NCBI RefSeq assembly: GCF_009688965.1
Contig: NZ_AP021875.1
Location: 5,394,001-5,458,000 of the forward strand
Reading direction: 5' to 3'
DNA: 64,000 bases
Source of the DNA: Desulfosarcina widdelii
GTDB taxonomy: Bacteria; Desulfobacterota; Desulfobacteria; Desulfobacterales; Desulfosarcinaceae
Every line of letters begins with the position of its first letter. Position 1 is the first letter of the stretch. Below are positions 3,652-38,978 of the stretch, in pieces. Below the pieces are notes generated by a model. That model was not told the DNA's origin. It made no database searches and worked only from the letters and a program-made list of their open reading frames with translations. Both the position numbers and the translations under genes were made by a program.

Positions 3652-5706
3652 ATGACTATAGCGATTCTATTGATGGGCGGATTGGGACTCGTGGTGGGGG
3701 TCGGCCTGGCCATAGCTTCCAAGGTTTTTTATGTGTACGTGGATCCCAAAATCGTCGCCATCGATGACGTGCTGCCCGGAGCCAACTGCGGTGGCTGCGG
3801 TTTTCCAGGGTGCAGCGCCAATGCCGAAGCCATCGTGGCGGGCAAATCCTCGCCCAGTTCCTGTGTGGCGGCCGGAGACGAGACGGCATTGGCCATCGCC
3901 GCTATCCTCGGCGTGTCCGTGGAGGCCAAGGAACCGGACATCGCCCTGCCCGGTTGCACCTATGGCGTGGCCGACGCGCAGACAAAATACAGCTACGACG
4001 GATTGAACGACTGCCGCGCCGCCGCCCTGCTCTCCGGTGGCATGAAGGTCTGCAATATCGGTTGCCTGGGGTTGGGCACCTGTGCCGCTGCCTGTCCCTT
4101 CGGTGCCATCGTCATGGGCCCCGAGGGCCTGCCTGTGGTGGACGAGGTCAAATGCACCGGCTGCGGTACCTGCGAGCGGGTCTGCCCCAAACACATTATC
4201 ACCCTTTCGTCCGTTACCCGCAGAATTTTAAAAGAGTACACCACCGAAGACTGTACCACCCCCTGCCAGCGCGCCTGCCCGGCGGGCATCAATATCAGCC
4301 GTTACATCGAACAGATCGTTGACGGCGATTACCAGGGATCAGTCCAGACCATCAAGGAGCGCAACCCCTTTCCCACGGTGATCGGCCGAATTTGCCCCCG
4401 ACCCTGCGAAAACGACTGCCGGCGCCAATATGTGGACGAGCCGGTGGCCATCAACTTTTTAAAGCGCTTTGTCGCCGATTATGAACGTACCCAGAACGAG
4501 CGCGTCCAGCCGTTCAAGGCACCGGACACCGGTCGCCGCATTGCCGTGGTCGGCGGCGGGGTCGAGGGTCTTTCCGCCGCCTTCTTTGCTGCGCGCCTGG
4601 GACACGCCGCCGTGGTTTATGAAGCTACCGACCGTCTGGGGGGTCTGCTCAACAGCGCCATTGCCAAATACCGGCTACCCGAAGAGATCCTCAAATGGGA
4701 TATCGACGGCATCCTGGAGATGGGCGTCGAAGCAAAGACCGGCCAGATGCTGGGCCGCGACGCGAGTGTTTCCGGGTTGCTGGATGAGGGTTACGAAGCG
4801 GTTTTCCTGGCATCCGGCGGATGGGACAGCCGTTTGTCCCGGGGTGCCGAAAAAGAAGTCGAGATGCCGATACCAGGCTGTTTTCTGCTGCTGGATCTGC
4901 TGCGTTCCGGACGGGACGGGCATTCGACAGTCACCTGTGAAGGCGAAACGGTAATCCTCGGCGGTGAAACGCTGGCCGCACAGGTTCTTGAAAAAGCACG
5001 GGAAGCCGGTGCCGAGCGGCTGACCTTCATCTTCAGAAAAGCGCCGGATGCGGCCACGGCAGCCGCGTTGAGCGAAGCCGGTGCCCGGGTGCTTACCGGC
5101 GTCGGCGTTACCCGCCTTTTCGGGCAGGGAGAGGCGCTCACGGGGATTGAGATTCGGGACGAAGCCGACGAACAAATCCAGATGCTGAACGCCCGGACCC
5201 TGGTTCTTTCCGCTGGCCGCTTTCCCGAACTGGTATTCGCCCGGCCCGCCGGAGAAGAAGAAACGGACACTCCTTCGGGAGCCTGGGTCGCGACACCGCC
5301 GTACAAGCAGCCTGCCAATGCCGAGGAATTCGGGCTGTTCGCCAAGGGCGACATCCTGACTGATTTCAGCGGTGCCATCAAGGCCATCGCCGCCGGACGG
5401 CGAGCCGCTGCAACGATTCACATGCTGATTTACGATATCTCCCTGGATTTGCCTGAAAACGTCATTCAAGCGGATACGGCCATTCAGAATGTGGATCATG
5501 TGGAGGAGGTTGCCGCCAGCCCGCGTCAGATCATGCCCCTGGCCGACAGCCGGGAACTGACCCGGAAAATGGAACTGGAGAAAGGGTTCGACACGGCCGC
5601 TGCCAAAGCGGAAGCTGCCCGATGCCTGCGCTGCGGACTGATTTGCTACCAGAATGCTGAAAAGCTGCAGCCGCTGGAACAGATCCGTGACGCGGTCAAT
5701 GCCTGA
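3652..5706 (+). CDS. RnfB-GltD fusion: membrane-anchored multi-cluster Fe-S flavoprotein
   Basis: 684 residues with three parts. Residues 1-30 form a membrane helix and 44-72 an RnfB-type Fe-S domain (Cys46, 49, 54, 71). Two ferredoxin-type clusters follow (Cys134/138/144/148 and Cys168/171/174/178). From about 195 the protein is like the small subunit of glutamate synthase: Cys201/205/209 and Cys248/252/256 for further clusters, the FAD loop VVGGGVEGLSAA near 300, a second nucleotide-binding region, and a C-terminal CLRCGLIC. Normal RnfB ends after the ferredoxin domains. The fusion should pass electrons between a pyridine nucleotide (via FAD) and ferredoxin or a membrane partner. AGGAG precedes the ATG. 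rseC follows, as in Rnf loci, but no other Rnf subunit is in the window. Donor and acceptor are inferred. Confidence 0.88.
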   Translation: MTIAILLMGGLGLVVGVGLAIASKVFYVYVDPKIVAIDDVLPGANCGGCGFPGCSANAEAIVAGKSSPSSCVAAGDETALAIAAILGVSVEAKEPDIALPGCTYGVADAQTKYSYDGLNDCRAAALLSGGMKVCNIGCLGLGTCAAACPFGAIVMGPEGLPVVDEVKCTGCGTCERVCPKHIITLSSVTRRILKEYTTEDCTTPCQRACPAGINISRYIEQIVDGDYQGSVQTIKERNPFPTVIGRICPRPCENDCRRQYVDEPVAINFLKRFVADYERTQNERVQPFKAPDTGRRIAVVGGGVEGLSAAFFAARLGHAAVVYEATDRLGGLLNSAIAKYRLPEEILKWDIDGILEMGVEAKTGQMLGRDASVSGLLDEGYEAVFLASGGWDSRLSRGAEKEVEMPIPGCFLLLDLLRSGRDGHSTVTCEGETVILGGETLAAQVLEKAREAGAERLTFIFRKAPDAATAAALSEAGARVLTGVGVTRLFGQGEALTGIEIRDEADEQIQMLNARTLVLSAGRFPELVFARPAGEEETDTPSGAWVATPPYKQPANAEEFGLFAKGDILTDFSGAIKAIAAGRRAAATIHMLIYDISLDLPENVIQADTAIQNVDHVEEVAASPRQIMPLADSRELTRKMELEKGFDTAAAKAEAARCLRCGLICYQNAEKLQPLEQIRDAVNA

Positions 5707-27873: not shown

Positions 27874-29319
27874 ATGGAGACCAGGCACAAGGTATTGATC
27901 ATGCGGTGCGATGGATATGACCCCGATGTCATCGGCGGGATCATAAAAGAGGGAATGGAAGAACTCGGTGTGGTGCCCACCGGAAAGGTTCTGTTGAAAC
28001 CGAATGTGGTCATTGCCCATCCGCAGCTGTTTCCCCACGCTTTCACACGAAAGGAATTTTTGGATGGCGCCATATGGGCGTCGAAGGCCAGAGCTGAAAA
28101 TGCCAGGGAAATCGCCGTGGGAGAACGTTGCGGCATCACGCTGCCCACACGTTGGGCGTTCAAGAATGCGGGCTACCCGGAAGTATTGAAGAAGCATCGA
28201 ACCAAGGCCTACTATTTCGATGAAGTGAAGCAGGTTCCTGTGAATTTGAAAAGCGGAGCTGCGCTGAGAAACACCATGTTTTTTCCCAAGCCCATCGCAG
28301 AAACGGATTTTTTGATCAATCTGCCCAAGTTCAAGGCCCACCCGTGGTGCCGCCTGACGCTGAGTCTGAAAAATTTTATCGGCATTCAGGACGACCGACA
28401 CCGGCTGGTCGATCACAACGTTTTCCTCGAACATAAAATTGCAGACCTGCAGGAGGCGGTTCAACCCAAATTCATCGCCATTGACGCCATCACCGCCGGA
28501 CAGAAAATGATGCTGACACCGACGCCTTTCCACATGGGCGCCATTGTTATGGGCACCAATTCATGTGCGGTGGATACCGTGGGCTGCCATATGGTTCACG
28601 TCGATCCCGAAGATCTGATCCATCTCAAACACGCTTCGACCAGGGGGCTCGGCCCCATGAATATCGATGAAATCGAAGTTTCCGGCGATTTCCCGTTGGA
28701 AGAAGTCCGCGAGCGAACGACGAATTTCGAGTTCTGCCTGGAGACCATCGACAAGTATTTTTCCGACGGAACGAATTTGCGATGCACGGTGGGAAAGTTT
28801 CCCGAAAAACATTCTTCCGACTATTGCTGGGGAGGGTGCCCGGGCGCCTTGCAGGAGGCGATGCACCTGTTCGATGCCTTTCATCCGGAGGCAAGGCAGA
28901 CAATAAAGAAGGTCCATTATGTTGTCGGCAGAGTCCAAGGCCCTATTGCATTCGAAAAGGATGAGAAAATCCTGTTCGCCGGGAACTGCACCAGCTGGAA
29001 AGGGGAGATCAACGGCAAGGAAGTGACGATAAATAGCAGCTACAAACCCCCGCGCGCGGTTGACGAAAGAAAAACCAAAACCAACGACATGCTGGTAAAG
29101 ACTCTGGCAACCCTATGGAGCTGTTTTCGACAGAGAAAATCGGATTACGTTCACGCCAAAGGATGTCCCGTGTCCGTCGGCGATCATGTTCACTATCTTT
29201 CGATGCTCGGCAAATTGAAAAACGTCAATTTCGATCCCAGGATCGTTGTTTCGTTGAATATCGATTACTGGAAAATGAGATTTTATCGGGCGGTCAATCG
29301 CTGGTTGACGGATGAATAA
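27874..29319 (+). CDS. DUF362-domain protein
   Basis: 481 residues from ATG 27874, preceded by GAGGAGG at ideal spacing; a GTG two codons earlier is possible. DUF362 motifs are VLLKPNVV near the start, NLPKFKAHPWCRLTLSLKNFIG in pieces around 145-170 and the later DAITAG and DTVGCHM. The usual C-terminal ferredoxin motif of some DUF362 proteins is absent; cysteines occur in CWGGCPGA and GNCTSW instead. The function of the family is unknown. It overlaps the end of the lipase gene region and closes the five-gene cluster. Confidence 0.82.
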   Translation: METRHKVLIMRCDGYDPDVIGGIIKEGMEELGVVPTGKVLLKPNVVIAHPQLFPHAFTRKEFLDGAIWASKARAENAREIAVGERCGITLPTRWAFKNAGYPEVLKKHRTKAYYFDEVKQVPVNLKSGAALRNTMFFPKPIAETDFLINLPKFKAHPWCRLTLSLKNFIGIQDDRHRLVDHNVFLEHKIADLQEAVQPKFIAIDAITAGQKMMLTPTPFHMGAIVMGTNSCAVDTVGCHMVHVDPEDLIHLKHASTRGLGPMNIDEIEVSGDFPLEEVRERTTNFEFCLETIDKYFSDGTNLRCTVGKFPEKHSSDYCWGGCPGALQEAMHLFDAFHPEARQTIKKVHYVVGRVQGPIAFEKDEKILFAGNCTSWKGEINGKEVTINSSYKPPRAVDERKTKTNDMLVKTLATLWSCFRQRKSDYVHAKGCPVSVGDHVHYLSMLGKLKNVNFDPRIVVSLNIDYWKMRFYRAVNRWLTDE

Positions 29320-29377
29320 AGGGTGAACAGAGGATGTTGCAAAAATTCGTTGGTTGGAGAAAGACAGTCCGCTAACA

Positions 29378-30487
29378 TTAGATGTCGGTCTCCGCTTGAA
29401 TACAATTTCCTCCTCTACCTTTTGCTGCATACAAAGCCTGGTCAGCGCGGGATAGAACCGTTTCGATTTTTTCTTTGTTCCGGAATTGCGCCACACCACC
29501 GGATACGGTTACCGTCAAGTCCGATGCCACATCAATGAACCGGAGCGCTTCAATGGCCCTGCGGATTCGATTGGCCGCTATGGTTGCGCGTTTAAGGTTG
29601 ACGCCATTGGCCAGGAGGACAAATTCTTCTCCTCCAAAACGGGCAAACAGGTCAGAATCGCGCAGTTGTGACTGAACCTCGGATGAAAAACGTTTGAGTA
29701 CGACATCGCCGACGTGGTGGCCCATCCTGTCATTGATGCTTTTGAAGCGGTCCAAGTCGAAAAAGCAAACACAAAAACCGTTGCCGCCACGATCGGCGAC
29801 CGCCTTTTGCCTTCTAAGCATATGCATCATATGTCGTCTGTTGGTTAAACCGGTAAGCTCGTCCGTAATGGCCATATGTTCTATTTTTTCAATTGCCGTT
29901 GCGAGCTCTGCATTGCGCTGGTACAATTTTCTTCTAAGCAGGCTTATCTGATTGCTCACAAAAGAGAATGCAACGATAACCAAAACAAAAACAAGAGCGA
30001 CGACGTATTCATCTTCAATCTTAAATTGGCTTGGGTATAGCTGACAAAGCGTGAAAATGACGGCAATATATCCCAAGATCATTACCGCTGCCGTGGCCCT
30101 GTATTGATTGGGGGTCATGCTGAACGCCCCGTATAAAAGGATGATGGGAAAATACATCAACATGAGGGCGCGGAAATGATCCATAAAAAAAACGGTGATC
30201 AACAGCGTAAAGATAGACCAATTTACCATCTCCCGGGTCATGCTGGGATCCGATAAGCGCCGATTGACGCCCAGGCGAATCAATACTGGAATCGTCAGGT
30301 GACCCACCCACAAAAAAATCATCAAGAAAGCGAATTCCTGGAACTCGAGCCTGAACCCCCCTGAAAAAAACAAAATAACGGATACCAGCGATTGACTCGC
30401 GCCCCCTCCCAGGGCCTGGAGCGCCCGCTTCATGCGGATCCGCTGTTTCACGTCATCTTTTGGAATCAGCTTGTCGAACAATACCAT
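29378..30487 (-). CDS. Membrane-bound diguanylate cyclase
   Basis: 369 residues. Six hydrophobic segments fill the first 185 residues, then a short helix leads to the GGDEF domain. The active-site loop is GGEEF, and RDSD lies five residues before it, an intact inhibitory I-site (RxxD). MAITDELTGLTNRR and FFDLDRFKSIND are also present, so it should make c-di-GMP from two GTP and show product inhibition. The membrane part resembles no sensor domain I know. It stands alone; the PilZ protein at 6.2 kb and the EPS genes are possible downstream targets of c-di-GMP. Confidence 0.92.
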   Translation of the reverse strand: MVLFDKLIPKDDVKQRIRMKRALQALGGGASQSLVSVILFFSGGFRLEFQEFAFLMIFLWVGHLTIPVLIRLGVNRRLSDPSMTREMVNWSIFTLLITVFFMDHFRALMLMYFPIILLYGAFSMTPNQYRATAAVMILGYIAVIFTLCQLYPSQFKIEDEYVVALVFVLVIVAFSFVSNQISLLRRKLYQRNAELATAIEKIEHMAITDELTGLTNRRHMMHMLRRQKAVADRGGNGFCVCFFDLDRFKSINDRMGHHVGDVVLKRFSSEVQSQLRDSDLFARFGGEEFVLLANGVNLKRATIAANRIRRAIEALRFIDVASDLTVTVSGGVAQFRNKEKIETVLSRADQALYAAKGRGGNCIQAETDI

Positions 30488-30903
30488 TTCTCCAAAACAA
30501 ATTTGTTCTCATTAATTCGGTCCAGGAAACCGGGTCCTCCGGGCCAGGTCAGAGGTAATTGGCTCCGCCGTAATCGTCGTGTAGGAATCCAGCATTCAGA
30601 ATAAGGCTTTCGCCTTCGGCTCATTCGATTTTTTCCAAAAGACGGAGCGAAGCGACATCAAAATCCTTCTGGCTCCTGAATTCTGTCTTCTGACGCCTAT
30701 TGTTTCTATTGATTGCAGCCATACCCCTGCCAGGGGGAACCCAAAACCGGGGCCTCCGGGTCCGGATATTTGCCCAGGTTTAAATCGAATATCGGTGAGA
30801 ACTCTTTTCAACTTTAGACAGATCCTAAAATAGAAACTGAATTTTGCACGAACCATAAGCATTCATATGCAATGAATCGGCATGTCGATATCGGCTTGTA
30901 TTA
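30488..30903. repeat. Non-coding region with imperfect repeats
   Basis: About 415 bases without a credible gene. The words AAACCGGGTCCTCCGGGCCA (near 30517) and AAACCGGGGCCTCCGGGTCC (near 30752) are imperfect direct copies about 235 bases apart. Between them lies low-complexity sequence with TTCTGGCTCCTGAATTCTG-type words. It looks like degenerate intergenic repeat material; an open frame at 30596-30862 on the minus strand has no protein-like composition. Confidence 0.4.
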
Positions 30904-31848
30904 CTAAAATCGTCCTTTCAAGGTTATGCCGACAAACGGCGCCGTGTCCGTTCCGGTTTCACCCAGATCGTTGCCGTCTTCATCGTCAATGCTGATTTTG
31001 CCATCTATACACGCCCCGCCGTTGATGTCGAGCCGATAGCTCTCGCCAAGCCGCCAACCGATGCGCAGGAAGGCCGCCCAGAACTCCACTTCTCCGATGC
31101 CGTCGGGCACGGCATTGCTGTCATCCAGACGAAAGCGGTAGGATCGAAACGCCCCTCCCACGCCCAGTTCCAAACGGTCGGTCGGGGTGTAAACCAGTTC
31201 CAGGCCGGCCGGACCGGCTATGCCGGCGCGGAAAGGATTGCTAACTTTGAAGCGGTCGTCGATCTTCCAGTCGATGGCCAGGAAAGGAAAGGCCTCCCAT
31301 TCATCCAGCCGATTGAATACCCCGGCGCCAACGCCGATCTTCAGGTTCGGCCCAACCGCATGCATTGCCGAAATAACCGCCCCGTAAGAAAGGGATTCAT
31401 CGGTTTCGGCCCCGGACGCACCGGCAAACTCCACGCTGGGGATAACCATCAGGCGCCATTGGTTGGCAGTGGTGTAGGCAATGGGCAGGCTGATACCCGG
31501 CCGGACAATCTCGTCCCACAGGTCGATCCCGGCCAGACCGTCGATTCCGGAGAAATCCCAGCGTTCGTAGTCGAAGCTCAATCCCAGGCCGACCGCCCAT
31601 TGCCGGTTGACAATCCGGGTCACGTCAAACCGAAAAAAATGGCGCTCGACATCGAATTCGCCACCGCTGTCCAGGTCGGTTTCGAACTGGTAGACAGGGG
31701 TATAGGAAAATGAAAAAGCGTATTTCGGAGGCGCCGGTCTGGCGGAACCGGCATCACCGGACTGGGCATGGGCGGAAGCAGTCATTGCCATGGCGGTGAG
31801 GATCGTCGATAGTCCCAATAGCACAAAAATCTGGCGAGGGCAGCGCAT
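30904..31848 (-). CDS. Outer-membrane beta-barrel protein (DUF6268-like)
   Basis: 314 residues with a signal peptide (LLGLSTILTAMAMTASAHAQ). The rest is built of alternating polar/hydrophobic strands with aromatic girdles and ends in GITLKGRF; a C-terminal Phe is the usual BAM recognition signal. The arrangement resembles DUF6268 barrels, whose role is unknown. A likely ribosome-binding site (AGGAGGAATAA) precedes the ATG at 31848. Single-gene unit. Confidence 0.8.
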   Translation of the reverse strand: MRCPRQIFVLLGLSTILTAMAMTASAHAQSGDAGSARPAPPKYAFSFSYTPVYQFETDLDSGGEFDVERHFFRFDVTRIVNRQWAVGLGLSFDYERWDFSGIDGLAGIDLWDEIVRPGISLPIAYTTANQWRLMVIPSVEFAGASGAETDESLSYGAVISAMHAVGPNLKIGVGAGVFNRLDEWEAFPFLAIDWKIDDRFKVSNPFRAGIAGPAGLELVYTPTDRLELGVGGAFRSYRFRLDDSNAVPDGIGEVEFWAAFLRIGWRLGESYRLDINGGACIDGKISIDDEDGNDLGETGTDTAPFVGITLKGRF

Positions 31849-32221
31849 TTATTCCTCCTGAGGCTGTGATGGGAAGTGCTCACCGAATCGTTCCGGTAAG
31901 GCAATTGGCCCATTACATTGCATGAAAAGCCCACGTTGTCACCAGATTTATGGGTTCTGTTGCGTCTTGCTGCGTACCTCTATATTTTTTTAACGACGGG
32001 CAGAGTTTACCCCGCCTTCCAAGCACACCGTCAGGATGGGCGCGAAGGGGAAACACGTGGCTGGGCCGGTTCGAATCCTCGGACCTGCAATCCTCTGCAA
32101 TCACCGTCCTGACGCGAGCAGGATCCCTTTGCCGTGTTGAAGACAATGGATTGCTTAATGAATCCGTTCATTGGAATTTTTTGGTCGGCGGCCATTCTTT
32201 TCTTTTTTTGGCGGTTTAGGA
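31849..32221. other. Intergenic region with an 11-bp inverted repeat
   Basis: About 370 bases. CGTCAGGATGG (near 32030) and CCGTCCTGACG (near 32104) can pair over 11 bases with one G-T pair, enclosing a segment with GGTTCGAATCC. This recalls a tRNA T-loop, but no cloverleaf can be drawn. CTGCAATC is repeated at 32090 and 32099. No gene or promoter was recognised. Confidence 0.35.
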
Positions 32222-32830
32222 TCACTTTTGAAGCCGGTGCGCAAGGATCCCGCCGATCATGGCCAGGCATTCCATATCCAGATAACCGGCCGCGTTTTTG
32301 CGCAGCAGCACGGTGCACTGGGCCGGGAAGTCCTCGTCGGCATCGTGAAAAATGAGAACGATCGGCACCCGGTGCAGGGCCTGGAATTCATAGGCCAGGT
32401 GGCAGGACACGTCCGTATCGAACGGTCGGCCGCCCAATGCCAGGCACGCCGCTTCAAGCTTGTCCAGGCGACCTGAAAAGGCCCTGGCAATGGGGATTTC
32501 AACCGTGTTTTTGAAGCCGCCAACATACGGTGCGGCATCCTTGAAGTCCTTGTAGGTAACCAGGGTGTGATCCGTTTGGGGCGTGTCCGGGCAAAGCAGC
32601 AGGTATTTGCAGACCAGTACGCTGGCTGCATGGCTGGGGGGCTCGTTGTTTTCATTGAAGATTCCGTCCTGGGTAACGGTGATGCTTTGATTGAACAGGG
32701 GAACCGTGAAACCATCTTGGGTTGCATCGATCCCCAATGTGTCGCTTAAACAGGCTCTGTCTTCCAGGGCCGCTACCTGCTGCAAATAATCCGCGATGAT
32801 TTTATCGAAAACCGGTGCGCGTTCTGTCAT
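32222..32830 (-). CDS. DUF3786 protein
   Basis: 202 residues, one DUF3786 domain and nothing else. Typical stretches are KYLLLCPDTPQTDHTLVTYK, CHLAYEFQALHRVPIVLIF and DADEDFPAQCTVL. The same domain forms the C-terminal part of the gene just upstream (32846-33655), 15 bases away, so the pair arose by duplication and is co-transcribed. AGGAGG precedes ATG 32830. DUF3786 is known mainly from anaerobes with corrinoid or CO-dehydrogenase chemistry; its biochemical role is not established. Confidence 0.82.
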   Translation of the reverse strand: MTERAPVFDKIIADYLQQVAALEDRACLSDTLGIDATQDGFTVPLFNQSITVTQDGIFNENNEPPSHAASVLVCKYLLLCPDTPQTDHTLVTYKDFKDAAPYVGGFKNTVEIPIARAFSGRLDKLEAACLALGGRPFDTDVSCHLAYEFQALHRVPIVLIFHDADEDFPAQCTVLLRKNAAGYLDMECLAMIGGILAHRLQK

Positions 32831-32845
32831 TTTTTCCTCCGTTCG

Positions 32846-33655
32846 TTATGCACTTACCCCATGGCGTAACGCCAGTTTCTCAAACATCCGCGTAATGCCA
32901 GCACCCAGGGCATACAGGCCGTCGATGCCCAGATTCTCCTCGGCGGTGGCGTCAAAAAACAGATTCAGATTGGATTTCATACCGTCCTCCGCATGCCAGT
33001 AGCAGACCAGCAGCGGGATCAGGGGCAGGGGATAGAGCACCAGGGCAACGTCCGATTGAAACTGGTTTCCGGCGGGTTGGCCGTTGAACAGGTCCACCAG
33101 ATCGCTGAAAAGCTCTGGGTAGGCATCGGCCACTTTTTTCATGGGTTTTTCGCAGCGCTGGCCGAACAACCGATACCAATCCCCGCCGCTGGGCAGTTCG
33201 CGCAGCGGCACCCATTTTCCCGTGACAGGTACGCCCTTGCAGCAAAGGATATAATTCAGGACCGGGGCCGTTACCCAGGGGTTGGCATGGATGTCCGTAT
33301 ACACCGTTCCGGCGTCATCCACGCCGAAGTCCTTGCCCATTACCTTTAGAACGAGCTTTTTACCGTCATATACCGCGCCGATGCGACTGGCTGCATCGCT
33401 GAAATCGACCTGGCTCAACCGGGCCTTTAATTCAGCGAGTTGATTTTCGGTTTCCTGCGCATTGTTGGCTCGTTTCTGGGTCTGACTTTCATACTGATCG
33501 GCAATTTCCGGGGGAAGCTGGGGGCAGTCGGACAGCGGCCGCCGGCCACCGAATACGGCGGCGGCAAAGGCCATGCACGTTTTTTCGTTGCATTTCCGGC
33601 AATTGGATTTTTCAAGCAGTTTGAATACATCCATGAGCGTCTTGAACTGGGACAT
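32846..33655 (-). CDS. Fe-S domain plus DUF3786 protein
   Basis: 269 residues from ATG 33655, which has AAGGAGGT upstream. Residues 10-50 form an Fe-S domain of the kind at the N-terminus of the corrinoid Fe-S protein and RnfB: Cys19, 22, 27 and 44 in C-x2-C-x4-C-x16-C spacing, with CMAFAAAVF between. A short helical linker leads to a DUF3786 domain (GKKLVLKVMGKDFGVDD to KSNLNLFFDATAEENLG). It should bind one [4Fe-4S] cluster in the cytoplasm. It is divergent from a LuxR-type regulator that carries the same Fe-S domain, which suggests a shared redox signal or a regulator-target relation. Confidence 0.82.
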   Translation of the reverse strand: MSQFKTLMDVFKLLEKSNCRKCNEKTCMAFAAAVFGGRRPLSDCPQLPPEIADQYESQTQKRANNAQETENQLAELKARLSQVDFSDAASRIGAVYDGKKLVLKVMGKDFGVDDAGTVYTDIHANPWVTAPVLNYILCCKGVPVTGKWVPLRELPSGGDWYRLFGQRCEKPMKKVADAYPELFSDLVDLFNGQPAGNQFQSDVALVLYPLPLIPLLVCYWHAEDGMKSNLNLFFDATAEENLGIDGLYALGAGITRMFEKLALRHGVSA

Positions 33656-33706
33656 GGGGACCTCCTTGGGTTGCATTGATCGATGCTGGCGAGCATACAA
33701 AAGAAA

Positions 33707-33826
33707 GGGGGACGTGAAATCCCCCATTTGGGCGATCAAGTGCTTTTTTGGGGGGATTTTTATCGTCAACCTTGTCAGGCAAGCGATAAACTATCAGACA
33801 TGTCATTCCCGCGAAGGTGGGAATCC
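33707..33826. repeat. Hairpins and REP-like repeat between the divergent Fe-S genes
   Basis: AAATCCCCC (33717-33725) can pair with GGGGGATTT (near 33751-33759) and, alternatively, GGGGGA (33707-33712) with TCCCCC. TGTCATTCCCGCGAAGGTGGGAATCC (33801-33826 in part) matches the hairpin at 12068-12090. The full gap is 33656-33941; no clear promoter was found for either gene. Confidence 0.45.
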
Positions 33827-33941
33827 ATTCATCTCCATTCGTTGTGAATGTTGTCGGGCCTTGATCCAGCATCCAATAGATGCCCGTATCGCTCCCAAAA
33901 GCCTTTACATTTCAAGGAGGGAAAGATAGGAAAAATGAATA

Positions 33942-34901
33942 ATGGAAGCGTGTCACCCCATGGACGACAGCATAATTCACACCAATACCCTCGCGAATCA
34001 CGATTTCTCGACGGCCTACGCAACCCTGGCGCTCTTTTCATCCGGCCCGTTGGCGGGACAAAGTGCAGCGGTGGATTGTCTGGCCCTTGGTGCGCGTTTC
34101 GAGTTGGACTGCGAGTTGGCGCCCCTGTTTCCCTATATCAACGCCGTGGCCGACAGTGCCCAGTACTATGAGAAGCCGGTTTACATCAAATTTTTGCTTG
34201 CGGACCGGCTGTGTGCCTTTTATTCCACCGAAGGCGCCTTTACGCCGGTGCGGGATCTGGCCGAGGCCATGGACTTTTTGCCGACGCTTCTGGATTTTAT
34301 CCGGGATGTAAGCAGGCGCCGCCCGCAGATTGTCCCCAACAATAAAAAATACAATCCGACCTCGGCCGTGGACATCTACCGGCTATTGCCAGGTTCCAAC
34401 TGCCGGGAATGCGGTTTTGCCACCTGCCTGGCTTTTGCCGCGGCGCTTTCCCGCGGGCGCACCTCCATGGCCAAGTGCCCCCATATGGCCGATCCTTTAG
34501 AAGAGAAAGCCACATACCCGGTTTACGACAGCAAGGGCAATCTCCTCCGTACCGTCTCGCTGGATATCGACACCTCCGGCCTGCGCACCAAAATCAGCCA
34601 GAAGGATGCTCGTATCCAGAGCCTCGAGACGCAGCTTTCGGATTTTGAGAAACGCCGGCGGGCGAATATCGCTTCGGCCAATGCCGAACTGCCGATGCCT
34701 CTTACCCGGAGGGAGATCCAGGTTCTGCGCCGCATTGCCAGCGGATTCACCAACAGGGAAATCTCCAGTCAGCTCAACATTTCTCACCACACCGTAAAGA
34801 GCCATGTGATTCACATCTTCAATAAAATCGGAGTCAACGACCGCGCCCAGGCGTCTGCCTGGGGGGCCATGCATGGGTTGATCGACCTGCTTGAAAATTA
34901 G
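33942..34901 (+). CDS. LuxR-type transcription regulator with an internal [4Fe-4S]-binding domain
   Basis: 319 residues. Residues 1-140 are an unrecognised alpha/beta domain. Residues 143-182 are an Fe-S domain: Cys154, 157, 162 and 179 in C-x2-C-x4-C-x16-C spacing with CLAFAAAL between, the same as in the divergent 32846-33655 protein. A charged helix (about 215-245) follows, then a LuxR/GerE helix-turn-helix (254-315) with LTRREIQVLRRIASGFTN and the recognition helix region SHHTVKSHV. No response-regulator receiver is present. The likely role is a transcription factor that senses redox state, oxygen or cluster status. Start uncertain: ATG 33942 or ATG 33960. Confidence 0.82.
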   Translation: MEACHPMDDSIIHTNTLANHDFSTAYATLALFSSGPLAGQSAAVDCLALGARFELDCELAPLFPYINAVADSAQYYEKPVYIKFLLADRLCAFYSTEGAFTPVRDLAEAMDFLPTLLDFIRDVSRRRPQIVPNNKKYNPTSAVDIYRLLPGSNCRECGFATCLAFAAALSRGRTSMAKCPHMADPLEEKATYPVYDSKGNLLRTVSLDIDTSGLRTKISQKDARIQSLETQLSDFEKRRRANIASANAELPMPLTRREIQVLRRIASGFTNREISSQLNISHHTVKSHVIHIFNKIGVNDRAQASAWGAMHGLIDLLEN

Positions 34902-34927
34902 GGCAAGCTAAGCATTTTGGAATGAAT

Positions 34928-34952
34928 GCCCGTTAAAATAACGGACTTTTAT
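34928..34952 (+). terminator. Weak possible terminator after the Fe-S LuxR gene
   Basis: GCCCGTTA and TAACGGAC pair over seven of eight bases with a three-base loop, followed by TTTTA. The stem is short, so efficiency would be low. Confidence 0.35.
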
Positions 34953-35160
34953 GTTGCCCATACGCGTTTTCCCGTTTCTTTTCGAAAATTATTCATATGT
35001 GTGGAAATGTAAGTTCACCAATTATGTATTTTAGGTAATACTATGAAAAGTTTTTCCTAAAAATACATACTTTTTTTCATATTTCTGCCGATTCCGATAT
35101 CGATCAAAATATAAATATTTGTATTTATTAGTTTTATAGGCTATCGTCATTTTTACTTTT
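34953..35160. other. AT-rich intergenic region
   Basis: Roughly 200 bases of strongly AT-rich sequence with many poly-T and poly-A tracts between the regulator and the short exported protein. No open frame, repeat or consensus sigma-70 promoter stands out. It may act as curved upstream DNA for the sigma-54-like site that follows. Confidence 0.4.
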
Positions 35161-35177
35161 TTGGCACATAATTTGAT
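35161..35177 (+). promoter_or_regulatory. Sigma-54-like promoter ahead of the short PEP-CTERM-like gene
   Basis: TGGCAC (35162-35167), five bases, TTGAT (35173-35177). The consensus is TGGCAC-N5-TTGCW, so it differs only at the C of the -12 element (GA instead of GC). Transcription would start near 35189, about 85 bases before ATG 35274. Confidence 0.45.
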
Positions 35178-35273
35178 AGCTTATACATAAATGGTAAGTG
35201 AGATAGAAAAAATCTTATAATGCATCAGTTAGGCAACTTTGCTTTCACCTATTTTTATAAAGAAATGTTGGGC

Positions 35274-35522
35274 ATGAAAAAAATAAAAACAACATTTTCT
35301 TTTTTTGTACCGCTTCTGTTTCTCTCTGTGTTGCTAGCATGGCCGCTATCCAGCGAAATTAGCCTTGAAGCGTCAACGCTGTCGATGATCAACGGGGAGC
35401 ACACGAGTGTTGACCTTGAAAAAGGAACTTTTGGAAATCTCCACGAGTCTGCAAGGGTGGTTGTTCTTCTCGCAGGAACCGGAATTATTGGATTAGCATG
35501 CATCAACCGGAATAAAAAGTAA
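35274..35522 (+). CDS. Very short exported protein with a PEP-CTERM-like tail
   Basis: 82 residues from ATG 35274 (an ATG 54 bases earlier is also open). MKKIKTTFSFFVPLLFLSVL is a signal peptide, a polar stretch of about 35 residues follows, and the C-terminus is a hydrophobic helix VVVLLAGTGIIGLACI capped by NRNKK. Hydrophobic helix with GTGIIGLA followed by basic residues is the shape of PEP-CTERM sorting signals recognised by exosortases, but the Pro-Glu-Pro preceding the helix is missing (ESAR there). It may be a variant substrate or a small bitopic membrane protein. A strong terminator follows and a sigma-54-like promoter precedes it. Confidence 0.6.
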   Translation: MKKIKTTFSFFVPLLFLSVLLAWPLSSEISLEASTLSMINGEHTSVDLEKGTFGNLHESARVVVLLAGTGIIGLACINRNKK

Positions 35523-35572
35523 AACTCCAGCTACCATTAGGTAAATCAGCGACCTGTTGATTCGATCTTGTC

Positions 35573-35628
35573 GAATGAATCAAAAACCCGATATCTGAAC
35601 TCTCAGATATCGGGTTTTTGATTTATTC
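35573..35628. terminator. Bidirectional intrinsic terminator
   Basis: Arms 35573-35598 and 35603-35628 pair over 26 bases with one G-T pair and a four-base loop (ACTC). The core is AAAAACCCGATATCTGA, so an A-run on one side and a T-run on the other serve both converging genes. Confidence 0.92.
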
Positions 35629-35667
35629 AAATCTTTTTTAAGGTCCTTTTACGCTCTCCTTCACATA

Positions 35668-37326
35668 CTAATTCCCGTAAACAACTATATAGTTACTCCG
35701 AGTTTCAGAAGATGACCCGGATCCATAGTTGCCGCCTAAGCTGACACATTCACCGGCATTAAACATTTTACGGTAAAGCTTCATATACGGCTGCGAACTC
35801 AACGAAGTCGTGATTTTATAGTCGGAGCGAAATTCCCAATCGCTTAACCAATTAGGTGCCGAAGAGGATCTGCTGTCATATACTACATACACCCAATAAC
35901 TGACAGGAGTGGTAAAACGAATATAATCACTGGCTGAATTGTTATAGCGTTCATCGTTGGGCGTTTGAATGATTGTACGCCCCAGCATCCAGTCTGGAAC
36001 GCCTCCCGTGATGAAATAATCCCGGTCTGTGTAAAGATAGGCTCCAACAGCCACCTCGGATTCTGCAAATTTGGATTCTAACTCACAGCCGGAGGTGGTC
36101 GTCATTCCACCAACGCTGTTGCTGTAAAAAACGAGGTAATTGCTAACCGTATCCCCCGAAAAGCCGGCTGCTTTGTTGCCGCCAAGGTTGACGATTTCGC
36201 CTTTGGAATAATTGCAGCAATAGATCTTTAATGACGGCTGCGTAGATAGAGATGTTTTAATAACGTCACCGGTATCGACAAAATCGCTCATCCAATTCGG
36301 CAGGCTGGTTGCACGGCTGTCGTAGGCGACATATACCGTTCCATCGTAAGGCATGGTAAACGTCAGATAGCCACTGGCATCGGTGCTGTTTCTATCGTCG
36401 TTTGGCGTTATGGTCGCTTCCATGCCGTCATAGGAAGACGGCACATCCGTCAGTTGATAGCTCCTGTCCGTGTAGTATTCGATGCCGCTGGTAAGCGTAG
36501 TTTCCGCAAACTGTGAGCTTAAAACACCATCTATAGTGGTCGTCGTTCCACCAACGCTGTTGCTGTAAAAAACGAGGTAATTGCTAACCGTATCCCCCGA
36601 AAAGCCGGCTGCTTTGTTGCCGCCAAGGTTGACGATTTCGCCTTTGGAATAATTGCAGCAATAGATCTTTAATGACGGCTGCGTAGATAGAGATGTTTTA
36701 ATAACGTCACCGGTATCGACAAAATCGCTCATCCAATTCGGCAGGCTGGTTGCACGGCTGTCGTAGGCGACATATACCGTTCCATCGTAAGGCATGGTAA
36801 ACGTCAGATAGCCACTGGCATCGGTGCTGTTTCTATCGTCGTTTGGCGTTATGATCGCTTCCATGCCGTCATAGGAAGACGGCACATCCGTCAGTTGATA
36901 GCTCCTGTCCGTGTAGTATTCGATGCCGCTGGTAAGCGTAGTTTCTACAAACTTCGAGCTTAAAACACCGGAACTGGTTGACGAACCAGTGCTGTTCGAA
37001 ACGGAGGGATCATAGTGGACCTCATTGGAATTGGAACTTACGAGGCTACCATCGAAAGCCCGCACAACGAAATAGTATTCGGTCTGATCCTGGAGATTGT
37101 CTATGGTGCAGGTTGCCGTGGTTCCTTGCCAAATGGGCTGGCTGTAATTGTAAGCTTGACCACTTTCCCGTGCGTACAAAAGGTAACCATCCGGTGAACC
37201 ACTGACAGCGTCCCAGCGAAGTGTCACGCTGGCCGCCAGGACCGCGGTGGTTGCCATTAGAATTAGGGCGGTAAACAGGGTGGAAACGATAAGGGTAGTC
37301 TTGTAGAGCGTATGTTTTACGTTCAT
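35668..37326 (-). CDS. Secreted protein: fibronectin type III domain plus three 147-residue repeats
   Basis: 552 residues from ATG 37326. A signal peptide (LFTALILMATTAVLAA) is followed by a fibronectin type III domain (about 32-108). Then come three copies of a beta-rich domain, starting near residues 120, 267 and 414, each with a YTDR(S/D)Y motif, a TPNDDR or TPNDER turn and a GG ending N-Y-(L/I)-V-x-Y. The first two are nearly identical; the third has diverged. Cysteine pairs (YCCNY) occur in copies one and two. The domain is not one I can name; adhesion or glycan binding at the surface is a guess from the layout. Its leader has nested inverted repeats. Confidence 0.75.
   Translation of the reverse strand: MNVKHTLYKTTLIVSTLFTALILMATTAVLAASVTLRWDAVSGSPDGYLLYARESGQAYNYSQPIWQGTTATCTIDNLQDQTEYYFVVRAFDGSLVSSNSNEVHYDPSVSNSTGSSTSSGVLSSKFVETTLTSGIEYYTDRSYQLTDVPSSYDGMEAIITPNDDRNSTDASGYLTFTMPYDGTVYVAYDSRATSLPNWMSDFVDTGDVIKTSLSTQPSLKIYCCNYSKGEIVNLGGNKAAGFSGDTVSNYLVFYSNSVGGTTTTIDGVLSSQFAETTLTSGIEYYTDRSYQLTDVPSSYDGMEATITPNDDRNSTDASGYLTFTMPYDGTVYVAYDSRATSLPNWMSDFVDTGDVIKTSLSTQPSLKIYCCNYSKGEIVNLGGNKAAGFSGDTVSNYLVFYSNSVGGMTTTSGCELESKFAESEVAVGAYLYTDRDYFITGGVPDWMLGRTIIQTPNDERYNNSASDYIRFTTPVSYWVYVVYDSRSSSAPNWLSDWEFRSDYKITTSLSSQPYMKLYRKMFNAGECVSLGGNYGSGSSSETRSNYIVVYGN
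36106..36969. repeat. 441-bp tandem duplication inside the repeat-protein gene
   Basis: The block 36106-36528 recurs at 36547-36969 with a period of 441 bases (147 codons). Differences are few: K/Q, V/A and I/T changes near the repeat ends. Such identity points to a recent duplication or gene conversion and makes the locus prone to copy-number change. Confidence 0.9.
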
Positions 37327-37441
37327 GATCTTGGGCAACTCTCCTGGTCAATTTTTAAGCCAGATAACGTGCCATCCCAATGCTGTCGGGGGGAATCCCT
37401 CAACTACAAAGCAATAGGTTTGCCAGGTTGCCAAAGATCAT
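37325..37441 (-). promoter_or_regulatory. Structured leader whose inverted repeat covers the start codon
   Basis: On the minus strand ATGATCTTTGGCAAC (37441-37427) can pair with GTTGCCCAAGATCAT (37339-37325) at 14 of 15 positions; the latter ends inside the ATG of the repeat protein, and the CAGGAGAG ribosome-binding site (37346-37339) adjoins it. Nested inside, CCTATTGCT and AGCATTGGG pair at 8 of 9 positions around a GGGATTCCC turn. GGCAAACC resembles part of c-di-GMP-I riboswitches, but the conserved GCAAAGCC is missing, so it does not fit that class. Confidence 0.45.
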
Positions 37442-37853
37442 TGTTATTGGACTTTAACGGTTTGTTTTTTTAGAAAAAAAATTATTCAACGATCAACAAG
37501 ATCAATCTGGAAACAAGCCGTACGGGAAAAGTTTTTGATCTAAGTGTGCAAAGATCGTAACCAACGTCAAACGCGTATGGCCCGATTAGATTTGGGTATG
37601 ATTCGGTGTGGTAAAGGAGATTGTTGGTAGCGTCAAAAATCTTGTGCACATTTGGGAACGGTGTCCTCCACCGCTGCTGGTGATATAAATCTTAATGTGC
37701 AAATCGGGGGGGGGCGGCAGGAGTAATGCCGGAAAGCTTGGGCGATGCAGGTGAAAATTAGCTAAAATTATAAATAGATATGTATGGAATCGGGGCGCGA
37801 TAGAGGGATGGGCAAGGGATGATGTCTTTTGGTGTAAATTGACAATCCGTTAT
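37442..37853. other. Intergenic region upstream of the repeat-protein gene
   Basis: About 410 bases between the start of the leftward repeat-protein gene and the end of the UDP-GlcNAc epimerase gene. A G-run (37708-37716) is the only striking feature. No promoter could be fixed with confidence and no open frame is protein-like. Confidence 0.4.
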
Positions 37854-38978
37854 TCAATTGGAAGGCATTGCGATGCGAATGGCTTTCACGATGCGCTGGG
37901 CGGTGCATCCGTCCCACCGCTCGGGCACGTGGTAGGATTTGGCGGCTCCGGCAAGAATGCGGTCAATTCGAGGCTCCAGGCTTTCCATGGTACACAATTG
38001 ATTGGTGCCTTGATCGACTGTTATCGGCCGCTCCGTATTGGGGCGCATGGTTAAACAAGGAATACCCAGATAGGTGGTTTCTTCCTGTATCCCGCCTGAA
38101 TCGGTAATGACAAACTGGCAGTTGAACACGAGATTCATGAAACGGACATAGTTCATGGGTTCCGTCAGGACCATCTTTTCTGCATGTTGCAGCCCATCCA
38201 GCAGACCGAAGGCAACGAGATTCTTTCGGGTACGCGGATGAACCGGAAATACCAGCGGGGTCCGCTCGGAAACGGCGATCAGCAGCCGGCACAATGCCGC
38301 CAGAATATCAGGGGAATCCACATTCGCCGGTCGGTGCAAGGTAATCAACCCATACCGGTTGGGAGACAACCCCAAATCGGAAAAGGCGCCGGATCCCGTG
38401 ATCTTTTGCCGCATCATTTCAAGTGAATCGATCATGATGTTGCCGACGTTCTCGATCTTTTGGCGGGGAACGCCTTCCTTAAGAAGGTTTTCCGTAGCAT
38501 CCGGTGAAGGGGTCCACAAGATGTCGGCCAAGGCGTCGGTGACCAGCCGATTGATTTCTTCGGGCATGGTCCGATCGTTCGAGCGCAAACCGGCTTCCAG
38601 ATGAGCCACCACTGGCCGACGGGAACCCTCCGGCAGGTCTGTGTAGACAACCTTGCTGGCTGCGATGGTGCAGGCCATGGTCGAATTGACATCCCCCACA
38701 ACAACGACAAGTCGCGGCTTTTCCTTGAGAAGAATCTTCTCATAGGCAATCATAACATTGCCCGTCTGCTCGGCATGGCTCCCGCTGCCGATTCCCAGAT
38801 GGATGTGTGGATCGGGCAGCCCCAGATCTTTGAAAAAGGCATCCGACATGTTGATGTCGTAATGCTGGCCGGTGTGAACGATAACCGGCCGGGCCCATTC
38901 TGCCTGATTCAGGGCATGGTACAGGGGGGCGATTTTCATGAAATTGGGCCGGGCCGCTGCGATCAGATGAATAATCAT
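37854..38978 (-). CDS. wecB: UDP-N-acetylglucosamine 2-epimerase (non-hydrolysing)
   Basis: 374 residues, full length for the family. AAARPNFMKIAPL, VVVGDVNSTMA, HLEAGLRS, PEEINR, TLHRPANVD and TDSGGIQEE are standard WecB motifs, including the active-site Asp, Glu and His. It converts UDP-GlcNAc to UDP-ManNAc in the cytoplasm, providing a precursor for ManNAc or ManNAcA in the polymer. Last gene of the leftward EPS unit, 240 bases after fcl; the gap 38979-39217 shows nothing notable. A ManNAc product is in keeping with the WecG/TagA-type transferase at 48.9 kb, whose relatives use UDP-ManNAc(A). Confidence 0.94.
   Translation of the reverse strand: MIIHLIAAARPNFMKIAPLYHALNQAEWARPVIVHTGQHYDINMSDAFFKDLGLPDPHIHLGIGSGSHAEQTGNVMIAYEKILLKEKPRLVVVVGDVNSTMACTIAASKVVYTDLPEGSRRPVVAHLEAGLRSNDRTMPEEINRLVTDALADILWTPSPDATENLLKEGVPRQKIENVGNIMIDSLEMMRQKITGSGAFSDLGLSPNRYGLITLHRPANVDSPDILAALCRLLIAVSERTPLVFPVHPRTRKNLVAFGLLDGLQHAEKMVLTEPMNYVRFMNLVFNCQFVITDSGGIQEETTYLGIPCLTMRPNTERPITVDQGTNQLCTMESLEPRIDRILAGAAKSYHVPERWDGCTAQRIVKAIRIAMPSN

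Follow-up and report, generated by a model that had tools for sequence, protein, structure and literature searches.

The gene P0001 encodes a one-component LuxR/GerE-type regulator with an Fe-S domain of the PF04060 family. We propose, with a probability of about 0.72 for the whole proposal, that it activates the divergent DUF3786 genes P0002 and P0003 from a palindromic operator, under control of an Fe-S sensor. The locus lies in a 64,000-nucleotide stretch of Desulfosarcina widdelii DNA (the window). Comparison of related loci at the sequence level reveals a conserved regulator layout, a conserved predicted operator, a constant promoter geometry and a linkage to the target family. In the proposed mechanism, P0001, most likely as a dimer, would bind an 18-bp palindrome through its LuxR-type helix-turn-helix (HTH) and, from a position centred at about -42.5, would turn on the P0002/P0003 operon. 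Elsewhere, the regulator would act likewise on CGGC-domain genes, or on DUF3786 genes that lie in tandem with it or at a distance. The sensor would consist of a TBP-like domain and a four-cysteine domain of the corrinoid Fe-S protein type, probably with a [4Fe-4S] cluster; P0001 activity would depend, via a coiled coil, on whether this cluster is present or on its redox state.

P0001 (319 aa; 33942-34901, + strand; open reading frame and Pfam) is divergent from its predicted target P0002 (32846-33655, - strand), which codes for an Fe-S DUF3786 protein of 269 aa counted from the ATG. This ATG, at 33655, is preceded by a ribosome-binding site, AAGGAGG (33661-33667, - strand). P0003 (32222-32830, - strand), the predicted second gene of the operon, follows 15 bp downstream in the same direction. 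Both products match DUF3786 (PF12654) above the Pfam cut-off (7e-49 for P0002, 4.2e-42 for P0003). P0002 carries in addition a PF04060 domain (8.8e-12; residues 14-45, 33521-33616) before the DUF3786 part (residues 84-257, 32885-33406), with Cys19/22/27/44 in its translation. An Rfam search over 29000-38000 gave no match. The host genome is a single contig of 7.3 Mb, with Desulfosarcina species as nearest named relatives. Elsewhere in the window we observed a third PF04060 protein, an Fe-S flavoprotein carrying this domain at its N-terminus (3652-5703; Fer4_20, Pyr_redox_2), and a 556-aa fn3 protein (35668-37338; fn3 by Pfam) whose translation contains long, near-identical internal repeats.

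The HTH of P0001 (GerE; residues 253-304, 34698-34853, + strand; 2.3e-19, 69.2 bits against a cut-off of 23.5) is near-invariant in our alignment A1. Its PF04060 domain (residues 149-181, 34386-34484, + strand; 2.7e-13, 49.8 bits against a cut-off of 23) contains Cys154/157/162/179 with the spacing C-x2-C-x4-C-x16-C. Among the Pfam matches listed, no receiver domain was present in P0001 or in 22 other members of A1, and no autoinducer-binding domain in P0001. A scan of species genomes for orthologues gave 29 loci, and 23 orthologues were aligned with P0001. The four cysteines are kept in all 24 sequences, under a slight but non-nil selection since one search-pattern peptide covered the last cysteine; they are also kept in A1. 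The original prediction, made from the DNA sequence, had described this domain in both proteins and a LuxR HTH lacking a receiver, both borne out by the Pfam matches; it had also proposed cysteine conservation in orthologues as a check of its redox-switch idea, which the 24/24 count favours.

DUF3786 genes are present in 19 of 30 distinct regulator loci, against about 2% expected per locus at a generous gene density; the orthologue sequences being related, these loci do not count as independent events. Five of the 11 loci without DUF3786 carry a CGGC-domain gene (L019, L027, L036, L037 and L110). The full regulator was found in 13 genomes of a 395-genome phylum sample, one copy being split across two reading frames. 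All 13 encode DUF3786, compared to 238/395 overall (P 0.0012, uncorrected for phylogeny). The host genome has 12 DUF3786 genes, so that most are not beside P0001. The association anticipated by the original prediction thus stands for 19 loci and fails for 11, and the control of DUF3786 genes it had suggested gains from these linkages and from the sites upstream of such genes (below): that the regulator would control DUF3786 genes is well supported by sequence comparison. A small cysteine-containing family (MKCDHCQTDITESEE...; L019:3005-3436, L037:7127-7492, L027:8987-9349) adjoins the CGGC gene at a number of regulator loci and, in L116, lies beside a DUF3786 gene; the one member tested had no Pfam match.

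The predicted operator, ATCCCCCATTTGGGCGAT (33719-33736; 18 bp), was found by sequence comparison. The palindrome ATCSCCCNNNTGGGSGAT is the single conserved block in 9/9 divergent intergenic regions (the L109 copy has one mismatch), and the DNA around it is barely alignable. In the 7.3-Mb host genome, exact sites of the strict or the relaxed pattern occur only in the window and at 624283, and a control pattern gave no exact site. With the strict pattern and up to one mismatch, 11 of the 21 loci outside the deriving set have a site; comparison loci have none. With the relaxed pattern (ATCVCCCNNNYGGGBGAT, up to one mismatch), which was chosen after the loci had been seen, 23/30 loci have a site no more than 300 bp from the regulator, compared to a single one in the comparison loci, which total 204.8 kb. 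No site with up to one mismatch was found near the regulator in L021, L031 and L112.

Whether regulator and target are arranged in tandem, convergently or at a distance, the position of the palindrome tracks the target gene rather than the regulator. In tandem loci, it lies between regulator and target, upstream of the DUF3786 or CGGC gene. At L026, 2 kb separate it from the regulator and 69 bp from the Fe-S DUF3786 gene. L033 has two sites, one preceding the regulator and one preceding the DUF3786 gene. The regulator locus of genome G172 has only a site with two mismatches, upstream of a CGGC gene; the sole exact site of this genome is on a different contig, where a DUF3786 gene follows about 0.1 kb downstream.

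Other occurrences were also recorded. Exact relaxed-pattern sites in G077, G006, G036 and G389 are beside other genes or inside open reading frames. G036 and G389, related genomes whose regulator loci are site-free, carry an identical exact palindrome (L193:3447 and L194:954) near a GNAT-type gene, with no DUF3786 gene in the stretch examined. The second exact host operator (624283-624300; L173:5284) is located in a 568-bp gap after a gene for a 615-aa sensor-like protein. Downstream of it are two small genes and an alanine-dehydrogenase-like gene, with a -10-like TAGTTA at 21 bp. Host sites with one mismatch, mostly GC-rich or within genes, were not counted as a regulon.

A -10-like hexamer begins exactly 21 bp past the operator in the direction of the DUF3786 or CGGC gene; in the window, this is TATGCT (33692-33697, - strand). 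The best offset was 21 in each group of sites taken alone: the nine deriving sites, 17 other sites and five sites at loci of PAS-LuxR regulators (described below). TANNNT occurs at this distance in 7/9, 6/17 and 4/5 of them, respectively, against background rates of 0.004-0.025 (P 8e-12, 2e-6 and 1e-9), and on the regulator side in 0/9. Class II LuxR-type activators have their site centred near -42.5. Placing the hexamer at -12 to -7 puts the operator at -51 to -34 and its centre at -42.5: a position that would fit a class II LuxR-type activator. The start of P0002 transcription is expected near 33685.

The same palindrome might instead be bound by P0001 as a repressor, or serve mainly for self-control, the DUF3786 link being secondary. 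It does lie between both genes in the nine divergent loci, and L033 and L034 have a site immediately before the regulator. In tandem and distant loci, however, the site precedes the DUF3786 or CGGC gene rather than the regulator, the -10 element keeps a constant distance on the target side alone, and a repressor site would more often overlap the -10 or the start. We therefore hold repression or self-control to be decidedly improbable, and favour activation of the target genes.

Further insight came from the C-terminal half of P0001. After the Fe-S domain, the AlphaFold model has a beta hairpin (strands 188-195 and 201-209) and a long helix (211-248). This segment (residues 186-248, 34497-34685, + strand) resembles the end of a PAS domain plus a coiled coil and, together with the HTH, the terminal part of PAS-LuxR proteins of the phylum. 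In a tree of the hairpin-to-HTH region, the PAS-LuxR proteins form one clade (support 100/99), and PAS-LuxR and Fe-S regulators are together separated from two other LuxR proteins (support 99/97). The tree indicates that both types have a common C-terminal half and different sensors; it is compatible with a swap in either direction. DUF3786 adjoins PAS-LuxR genes in 5/10 loci (L103, L124, L156, L157 and L159), where the palindrome is similar and the -10 spacing identical to those at Fe-S regulator loci. From the shared operator and neighbours, one DNA-binding half seems to serve one target family under two sensors, as in a module swap.

These loci also bear on a trivial origin of the palindrome, as a chance or inherited sequence such as a terminator-like hairpin that the loci have in common by descent. 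The inverted repeat is perfect and adjoins runs of T or A, and many of the loci come from related Desulfobacterota. Yet gene orders vary while its place and the 21-bp spacing before the target stay constant, the flanking intergenic DNA is hardly alignable, and the palindrome recurs at PAS-LuxR loci, so that we regard such an origin as highly improbable compared with a functional operator.

As for the sensor, the best NCBIfam match of the Fe-S domain is the gamma subunit of acetyl-CoA decarbonylase/synthase (the corrinoid Fe-S protein), at 57 bits compared to about 29 for RnfB, and the domain of P0001 probably carries a [4Fe-4S] cluster. Alternatively, the cysteines could bind zinc or be only structural, with a partner protein or the N-terminal domain reading the signal. 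The PAS-LuxR relatives, which perform the same job with no Fe-S domain, speak for this possibility. Against it, PF04060 is typical of the [4Fe-4S] domains of corrinoid Fe-S proteins, the cysteines are invariant, and the Fe-S part of P0002 has corrinoid Fe-S protein as structural kin (Z 7.8-8.6; 2ycl and 4c1n, Z 8.3-8.6); we consider zinc or structural cysteines unlikely. The preferred cluster-bearing domain might then act as a redox or cluster-status switch, an idea whose basis is confined to the conserved cysteines and the homology to low-potential [4Fe-4S] domains.

The N-terminal 140 residues of P0001, unassigned in the original prediction, have indeed no Pfam match even at E 10, but part of them is predicted to resemble half of a TATA-binding protein (TBP). 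In the AlphaFold model (23 sequences, mean pLDDT 87.6), residues 26-125 (34017-34316, + strand) form two strands, a helix, four strands and a helix. A TBP half has the order strand-helix-four strands-helix, which the last seven modelled elements of the domain follow. Among the VIA-align matches listed for P0001, the sole one to this domain is Methanocaldococcus jannaschii TBP (2z8u_B; Z 10.1, rmsd 3.0, 88 aligned), the remaining ones being HTH domains. An hhalign comparison of a 56-sequence N-domain profile with six TBP halves aligned them in register with a score of 22.3 (P 0.0015), at an assigned probability of just 16.5%; none of 200 column shuffles reached this score, and the reversed profile gave 15.3. 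Other searches were negative. Among the matches listed, the Pfam TBP model (PF00352) hit no A1 member or N-domain protein, and across the 395 genomes its matches were weak and scattered, with no N-domain protein among those listed. TBP was absent from the best 60 rows of a profile search of PDB sequences with the N-domain, and from the best 50 Foldseek rows for the regulator, all occupied by HTH domains. The domain may thus be described as TBP-like and as a possible relative of TBP.

About 100 or more genomes of the phylum sample encode a shorter protein with only the N-domain and the Fe-S domain, and the host genome has one (L009:6153-6677, - strand). These stand-alone proteins (L085-L102, L104 and the host copy) are of about 175-215 aa and widespread in the phylum. 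Several adjoin ArsR regulators and ArsP_1-type permeases, which suggests a separate role, perhaps in metalloid or thiol stress.

The literature searched contains a single passing mention of DUF3786. DUF3786 genes adjoin CooC-like ATPases in L204 and L210 (by sequence) and in L223 (by Pfam), and one lies within a cobamide-biosynthesis cluster in L214 (GATase_3, CobD/CbiB); CdhD accounts for 2 of 94 DUF3786 neighbours. We take a function close to corrinoid or CODH/ACS metabolism as a lead rather than a finding. Structural matches of DUF3786 beyond the Fe-S part all had Z <6 and were not trusted, including TBP for P0002 residues 73-140 (Z 5.4-5.7) and START-like rows (Z about 4). More speculatively, the sensor could combine true TBP-superfamily and [4Fe-4S] domains, interchangeable with PAS and common to the stand-alone protein, and tune corrinoid- or CODH/ACS-linked DUF3786; we consider this extended reading tentative and somewhat short of even odds.

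As the original prediction had stated of this layout, a LuxR-type regulator with PF04060 is not described in the literature searched, most of it outside subscription journals. New here are the predicted operator, the -10 spacing, the apparent sensor exchange with PAS-LuxR proteins and the predicted TBP-like fold of the N-domain. The layout is thereby offered an operator, a promoter geometry and a target family, and DUF3786, common in anaerobes (see the phylum counts above), a first handle. The TBP fold is known from transcription initiation in archaea and eukaryotes; if the N-domain were a real TBP relative, this fold would double as a bacterial sensor module beside an Fe-S domain.

Compared with known systems, the N-domain shares its predicted element order with TBP and TBP-domain proteins, and the Z of 10.1 with the M. 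jannaschii protein; unlike TBP, it is missed by the Pfam model, is in single copy and sits in the sensor position. PF04060 is among the sensor domains of Clostridiales sigma-54 activators (PMC6615313), so that one-component regulators with this kind of Fe-S domain have a precedent. Those proteins are of the AAA+ sigma-54 type whereas P0001 is LuxR-type, and the passage on them reports no TBP-like domain. The corrinoid Fe-S protein gamma subunit (AcsC/CdhE) and RnfB have the same four-cysteine domain as P0001 and P0002; in contrast to AcsC/CdhE, the latter two have it joined to an HTH or to DUF3786, with no corrinoid-binding or TIM-barrel part. With LuxR/GerE (NarL/FixJ-type) regulators and class II LuxR-type activators, P0001 shares the GerE HTH and a palindromic site at about -42.5, but its predicted sensor is TBP-like plus PF04060, no receiver or autoinducer-binding domain having been found. 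The PAS-LuxR relatives (L070, L076, L103, L159 and others) have a hairpin, coiled coil and HTH homologous to those of P0001, and carry a PAS_4 sensor where P0001 has the TBP-like and Fe-S domains.
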